Assembly (NCBI GenBank): GCA_015345905.1
Contig: JADDTR010000028.1
Location: 239,019 to 303,018 of the forward strand
Origin: Aotearoamyces nothofagi
Lineage: Eukaryota > Ascomycota > Leotiomycetes > Leotiales > Tympanidaceae
Direction: 5' to 3'
Length of the DNA stretch: 64,000 nucleotides
Positions within the stretch are counted from its first letter, which is position 1, and every line of letters begins with the position of its first letter. Below the pieces are notes generated by a model. The model searched no databases. It was given only the letters and a program-made list of their open reading frames with translations, and had not been told where the DNA came from. Position numbers and translations under genes: made by a program. Below are positions 17,145 through 18,232 of the stretch, piece after piece.

Positions 17145-18232
17145 ATGAATTCCTACCGGGGAGCAACCATAGGAGCTCCTTCCAAAGCTACTGCTTCAAC
17201 GCTCTGTCAAAAGTGCCTCAAGAAAGATATGCTTATGTTGTTCCAGATACCAAATCTTAGCTGACCCTTCTTTACGTCACTATAGCTTCGAGTGCAAAGC
17301 CGTTGCGCAAGAACGACCATACGTTTCACGTCCCAGTCGTACCCAGCAGCTTTTCAATCCAAAGCTGGTACCAAAATTGACCAGCGACATACCACAAGAT
17401 CTTTTAAGAAAGTTAGTCAAGATATACCTATTCCTTCGGCCTTGTTAGCATACAAAAACCACGATATGTCCACCACTAACCTCTACCTTTCAGGAAGGGC
17501 GTTGCAGACGAGCAATTAGCTAAACGAGAGCAGGAGAGAGGGCGCAAACGCGACAGAGAGGATGACGATGCGGAAAACAAGATAAATGTAAAGCGTGTTA
17601 GGTCGACTTCATCTGAGTCATCCATTTCTGTTGCAACTATTTCTACAAAAGCGTCTAGATCACCATCACCACCACCAGGCAGAACGGAAGTTTCCAGGTC
17701 CGGGAAACCGCAGGCTATATCACCTGGAATTAATTCGGAAAAGAAGCGGAGAAGAGCCTCTTTCTCTTCTGAAGGCTCCTATATCTCAGAAGATGAATAT
17801 CATCGACGTGAGCGGAGGACGAGTAGTCGGAGCAATCGGAGGAAGATCAATGACGCTAGCCCACCTCCGAGGGGACGAAAAAGAAGTAGATCCCGCTCCA
17901 GAGATAGGCGTTTATCATATTCAAGTGAGGAAAGTCGATCTGGTAGCCCTGAACGTTTAGAACGACGTCAGCTCCCCCCTACGCAAAAACGTTCTGTGAG
18001 GAGTCGATCTCGCAGTCGCATAGCTCGTCAAAGGCGGGCACTATCCCGCGATGGAACCGACCGAAGACGTTACCCCGAAGACGACCGCTATGGTGCGAGC
18101 AATCATAATCATAGCACACGGCCTATCCCCCCAAGGCAAGAAGCACAGGTTAGAGCGCCACCGAGGGAGAGAAGCTTGAGTCCATTTTCAAAAAGATTAG
18201 CTCTGACACAGTCTATGAACATGGGCCGATGA
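17145..18232 (+). CDS. ZCCHC10-like zinc knuckle protein with RS-rich tail (AT-AC intron)
   Basis: Three exons: 17145-17226, 17276-17411 and 17494-18232; 318 residues. The first intron (49 nt) reads ATATGC...TTTAC instead of GT...AG. Removing it gives CQKCLKKGHYSFEC at residues 21-34, a complete CX2CX4HX4C zinc knuckle, and then RPYVSRPSRTQQL. This is the same order as human ZCCHC10 (CQKCL..GH..YEC...RPSRT). The second intron is canonical (GTTAGT...CAG). The tail is basic, with many Arg-Ser and Ser-Pro pairs (residues about 110-300), as in splicing-associated proteins. It probably works in the nucleus with the spliceosome; the exact role is not established. The next gene, on the other strand, is also a splicing factor (Cwf18). 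A start further upstream is unlikely. Confidence 0.82.

Follow-up and report, generated by a model that had tools for sequence, protein, structure and literature searches.

AT-AC introns are a kind already known, and those of the U2 type are usually regarded as rare oddities. U2-dependent (type II) AT-AC introns include intron 21 of human SCN4A, and passages of the same article propose U12 introns as their ancestors: a change at position +5 would convert such an intron, which would then be trapped, as both ends would need to change simultaneously (PMC2831892). In fungi, AT-AC was the most efficient pair of ends after GT-AG in a mutated yeast intron, as cited in a section of PMC6726248, which also gives the yeast SUT635 protointron as AT-AC. 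RNA-seq of Trichoderma longibrachiatum placed AT-AC at 69 of 14,305 junctions (excerpt of PMC4324775), the non-canonical introns of Fusarium graminearum include AT-AC (excerpt of PMC3577648) and AT-AC accounts for 0.03% in SnowyOwl models (excerpt of PMC4084796). AT-AC is described as rare in fungi overall (excerpt of PMC7072748), and in the excerpted text of PMC3951366 Neurospora AT-AC junctions are mentioned solely in antisense transcripts. Against this background, deep conservation is the unusual property of the intron described here.

The window, that is, the whole 64,000-nucleotide stretch of DNA analysed, holds a ZCCHC10-like gene of three exons on the + strand (17145-18232), the whole protein measuring 318 aa. 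Exon 1 (17145..17226, +) runs from the ATG to a phase-1 donor, supplies the first two cysteines of the knuckle and ends ...TGCCTCAAGAAAG at 17226, its last bases being AAAG. The 49 nt of intron 1 (17227..17275, +) read ATATGCTTATG...GCTGACCCTTCTTTAC, from ATATGC to TTTAC, and GTCACTATAGC (GTCAC) opens exon 2 at 17276. Exon 2 (17276..17411, +) completes the knuckle with HYSFEC and encodes the RPSRT motif; it is followed by an ordinary GT-AG intron 2 of 82 nt (17412..17493, +; GTTAGT...ACTAAC...TTCAG) and by exon 3 (17494..18232, +), which encodes an arginine/serine-rich tail with the TGA at its end. Joining exons 1 and 2 yields CQKCLKKGHYSFECKAVAQERPYVSRPSRT; left unspliced, the exon 1 frame reaches a stop after 39 codons. 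The 5' splice site ATATGC (17227..17232, +) departs from the U2-type GTATGT at two bases, A at +1 and C at +6. Within the branch site GCTGAC (17260..17265, +), the branch-like A is base 17264, 11 nt from the intron's final base. The 3' splice site is the AC at 17274..17275 (+), so that the intron starts with AT and ends with AC, as U2-type AT-AC (AT-AC II) introns do. When the sequence was re-read, the AT-AC ends, the 49-nt length, the end of exon 1 and the branch-like site were all as the original prediction, an earlier reading of this DNA, had described them, and the observation of an AT-AC intron at 17227-17275 in a zinc-knuckle gene is confirmed. In the fungus's own genome (25.5 Mb, 55 contigs), the query gave three matches, all of them the three exons of this gene.

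No other join scanned recovers the family knuckle. Among 9,230 donor/acceptor pairs scanned, the AT-AC pair 17227-17275 alone restored the ZCCHC10-type knuckle CQKCLKKGHYSFEC, with the pattern CQKCxxxGHYSFEC, and the joined sequence bears out the exact CX2CX4HX4C knuckle running on into RPSRT that had been claimed. The scan also listed 17 open pairs with GT-AG or GC-AG ends, and CX2CX4HX4C arises from none of them. Thirteen of these lose the histidine (for example CLKKDMLIFEC and CLKKDIFEC), as the original prediction had held for nearby GT-AG choices in general; in the other four that claim fails, and the histidine is kept at the cost of one or both N-terminal cysteines. With its knuckle followed by the RPSRT motif, the AT-AC join scores 74.7 bits against Pfam zf-CCHC_3 (PF13917); two other joins reach 63.8 and 65.2, likewise above the cut-off of 27. 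This supports the assignment to a ZCCHC10-like gene, and the source names of some homologues read zinc finger CCHC-type containing 10. A sequence search of the PDB returned three weak matches (E 0.36 to 0.57), each to a gag-type knuckle of a retrovirus. Human ZCCHC10 is among the listed interactors of the spliceosomal protein FRA10AC1 (excerpt of PMC10048706).

Comparing the joined protein with 5.8 billion proteins found 987 homologues, of which the best 120 were listed. A short-ORF search contributed 15 relatives among 40 candidates, and a read-through-profile search, in which the 7,997 candidates sharing most words were scored, found 715 homologues, again with the best 120 listed. The resulting 255 listed proteins, partly near-duplicate rows, are not a neutral sample, because the profiles of the second and third searches were built from read-through rows and contain the Asp column in both and the Arg column in the third. 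A spliced G-H knuckle is present in 141 of the 255, the intron is translated through in 57, exposing its ends, and a forced GT-AG choice of the KDIYEC or KDNYEC type is seen in 12. The 45 listed proteins outside these patterns comprise 33 that enter exon 2 with R before H and 12 others. In the latter group, the frame is shifted in four ORFs whose start is of the A[T/C] type (P0121, P0122, P0123, P0129) and in two with a G start (P0130, P0133); three proteins show a forced CQNYEC choice (P0087, P0173, P0175), and three are uninformative for the intron ends (P0135, P0190, P0219). One protein, P0016, has a 299-aa spliced frame on a 934-nt contig; the 34 nt left over are too few for the intron, so P0016 represents spliced RNA or an intronless copy. 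No near-identical pair of read-through and spliced proteins, as expected where a gene is represented by both its genomic DNA and its cDNA, was found among the relatives (best pair 78% identical). Pattern scans gave 22 matches in viral_contigs and 25 in genome_contigs, none of them a relative by tblastn.

In a read-through protein, the junction codon reflects the start of the intron (Gly for GT, Asp for AT or AC) and the residue before H its last base (Gly for G, Arg for C or A). Since the relatives are known as proteins, position +2 is readable as T or C and the last base as C or A. Within that resolution, 55 of the 57 read-through rows have Asp, meaning an A[T/C] start with GT excluded, and two have Gly (P0242, P0255). 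Before H, Arg stands in 53, meaning a C or A end with G excluded, Gly in three (P0139, P0242, P0255) and Ser in one (P0149). A penultimate intron base A requires an A-ending codon for the residue preceding that Arg; such a codon is possible in 53 of 53 cases and impossible for 27% of the residues inside the same introns. Read by hand, the frame-shifted ORFs gave an AC end in P0121, A then C or T in P0122, P0123 and P0129, and a G start with an AG end in P0130 and P0133. The original prediction had proposed comparing the ends in related species; compared through proteins, A[T/C] starts and C/A ends dominate.

Of 52 distinct Asp...Arg introns, 44 have an RCTRAC-encodable residue pair five codons before the Arg, compared with a mean of 2.2 and a maximum of 8 of 52 in 2,000 trials with shuffled residues, and the GCTGAC of the window lies at exactly the same offset. 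The second intron codon in the 52 is M in 21, K in 15, T in 6, E in 5, R in 5 and I in none, corresponding to ATATG, ATAAR, ATACN, ATGAR and other readings. G at +5 is certain in the 21 rows with M, and none of the 52 translated introns has the ATATC start expected of U12 sites. The forced models further suggest ATATGT (nine, KDI) and ATAAGT (three, KDN) starts, as these are the places where gene prediction limited to GT-AG ends would be expected to cut.

The best reading of these protein-derived ends is that an AT-AC intron has been kept at one position across leotiomyceta. The six carrier classes that were looked up all lie within this group: read-through carriers are Tricladium (Leotiomycetes), Penicillium salamii (Eurotiomycetes), Lasiodiplodia (Dothideomycetes), Glutinoglossum (Geoglossomycetes) and Colletotrichum lupini (Sordariomycetes), and Icmadophila (Lecanoromycetes) has a forced GT-AG model. 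So read, the AT-AC state is common across leotiomyceta, not universal. In four relatives (P0130, P0133, P0242, P0255) the intron at this site begins and ends with G (GT..AG-like); the N-termini of P0130 and P0133 resemble those of short Dothideomycete members. Two related rows depart otherwise: P0139 combines an Asp start with a G end and P0149 an Asp start with an A end, the latter also with W replacing a knuckle cysteine. These two rows may represent damaged copies or lineages on their way out of the trap. In a tree of 30 rows and 75 columns, P0242, P0249 and P0255 fall outside most leotiomyceta rows, with an inner set of 24 at a weak 84/90; three long Dothideomycete rows are also outside the inner set, and the window gene groups with three Leotiomycetes (95/85), which makes a leotiomycete, or a fungus near that class, the probable source. 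Because the tree support is weak and those three Dothideomycete rows lie outside, we claim no polarity of change.

Which spliceosome would remove the intron was approached through the genome's snRNAs. Over their cut-offs were U2 (158.6 bits), U4 (65.9) and two U6 genes (74.4 and 68.2). Three U1-like genes, all carrying ATACTTACCT at the 5' end, had scores of 51.6, 51.6 and 46.3 bits, which are significant but short of the 69.5 cut-off. As a separate observation, the two U6 genes, at L001 (reverse strand) and L002, each at about locus position 1501, apparently each contain a GC-AG intron of 47-48 nt (GCAAGT...CTAAC...AG) immediately ahead of the ACAGAGA box; the gene at L001 has ATACAGAGAAG and that at L002 has ATACATAGAAG, an altered ACAGAGA box. 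The U4 match at L010 (1576-1631) likewise contains a seeming 56-nt GTAAGT...ACTAAT...CAG intron.

The original prediction had proposed a genome-wide search for the minor snRNAs and the U11/U12 protein genes. With prokaryotic genomes as controls, the whole genome gave no match to U11 or U4atac at E up to 10 and at most 17.2 bits for U12 and 15.3 for U6atac, so that none of the four is over its cut-off. The zf-U11-48K domain had no match in the genome and matched one prokaryote control; PDCD7 (PF16021) had none in the genome or in the controls and is uninformative. At the 5' splice site, ATATGCTT differs from the U12 consensus ATATCCTT at one of eight positions, just as the original prediction had counted. 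A U12-type 5' site would read RTATCCTT, with C at +5 and +6 and one T allowed (excerpt of PMC2846911), and the window has G at +5. U12 branch sites are close to TTCCTTRAC, and the window has CTTAGCTGAC. The G at +5 in ATATGC and the branch site GCTGAC are those of a U2-type intron. Given that no minor snRNA is over its cut-off, that the branch site is U2-type and that ATATC is absent from 52 relatives, the intron is most likely U2-type. Of the two options offered originally, a relic U12-like intron or a U2-type AT-AC intron, the second is thus favoured, whether or not the intron descends from a U12 ancestor.

If a diverged minor spliceosome were present and had been overlooked by the searches, a true U12-type intron would account for the AT-AC ends, for the agreement of ATATGCTT with the U12 consensus at 7 of 8 positions and for the distance from branch to end, since about 11 nt falls in the usual U12 range. 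We nevertheless consider it very improbable: U11, U12, U4atac and U6atac are all below cut-off or unmatched, zf-U11-48K gave no match, no relative among the 52 starts ATATC and 44 of them have the RCTRAC branch. In addition, C or T is expected at +5 of a U12 site (excerpt of PMC2846911), and passages of PMC10639083 find no convincing minor introns in Ascomycota.

Other boundaries at the same place fare no better. The GT-AG pair 17237-17285 (GTTGTT...TATAG) is in frame, also spans 49 nt, ends at the first AG past the branch site and has analogues in the KDIYEC/KDNYEC choice of 12 of the 255 listed proteins and the CQNYEC choice of three more. Were it the real intron, with the AT-AC join a coincidence or a minor alternative, the product CLKKDMLIFEC would lack the zinc-binding histidine and depend on the weak donor GTTGTT; spliced G-H proteins, however, prevail (141 of 255 listed, including P0016, whose contig cannot accommodate the intron), and the branch and end signals conserved in relatives are those of the AT-AC choice. 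We therefore regard this pair as extremely improbable. The pair 17233-17275 (TTATGT...TTTAC), giving CLKKDMRHYSFEC, differs from GTATGT at the first base alone and keeps all four ligands with altered spacing, yet its Pfam score is 63.8 bits against 74.7 for the AT-AC join, and it is almost certainly not the intron. Its KDMRH junction occurs in 0 of the 255 listed proteins. Finally, each end is one base away from GT-AG, as assembly errors in an ordinary intron might leave it. Two such errors would have to fall exactly at both ends, and the same starts and ends recur in independent sequences from many relatives, leaving this explanation next to no credibility.

Very probably, 17227-17275 is a real spliceosomal AT-AC intron in a fungal ZCCHC10 relative and the major (U2-type) spliceosome removes it; the AT-AC pair probably goes back to an early point in leotiomyceta. 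The GTATGT-like 5' site would base-pair with U1 and U6 even with A at +1, and GCTGAC with U2. For the second step, the A at the first base and the C at the last would stand in for the usual G-G contact of the intron ends. The pair probably had a single origin, and a two-step trap would hold it, since a change at one end alone is proposed to splice badly. The fungal intron fits the published trap idea. A more far-reaching version, which we think unlikely, is that a former minor (U12) intron outlived the minor spliceosome, gaining the +5 G and a fungal branch site, keeping its AT-AC ends and becoming trapped in leotiomyceta; its retention, which breaks the knuckle, may also act as a switch.

The conservation across classes goes beyond the original prediction and is the most interesting part of the analysis. 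One AT-AC intron seems to occupy one position of one gene in at least six classes, and this shared position makes the trap idea set out in passages of PMC2831892 testable. Natural candidates for such a test are the relatives with GT..AG-like ends (P0130, P0133, P0242, P0255) and the two whose ends are of another kind (P0139, P0149). The intron also produces wrong gene models: besides the 57 listed proteins that translate it, 15 use a histidine-less GT-AG pair (12 plus 3) and the 33 mentioned above enter exon 2 with R before H, and named public records are among the mis-modelled proteins.

When comparing the intron with known systems, the open-licence PMC text, with supplements outside the scope, contained no prior report that we found of a conserved AT-AC intron in a ZCCHC10-like gene. 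The Trichoderma, Fusarium and yeast cases likewise represent AT-AC splicing in ascomycetes without a minor spliceosome. However, the ZCCHC10-like gene and cross-class conservation are absent from the main-text passages of those reports, and the intron may be among the junctions in their supplements. U12-type AT-AC introns share the AT-AC ends, the ATAT start and the short branch-to-end distance, whereas here +5 is G rather than C or T, the branch site is of the fungal U2 type and no minor snRNA is over cut-off. SCN4A-type AT-AC II introns share the AT-AC ends, the +5 G, splicing by the major spliceosome as the reading and long retention in one gene family. Whereas those are long vertebrate introns, the present one, whose splicing we infer, is a 49-nt intron of a fungal gene in a genome with no detected minor spliceosome.
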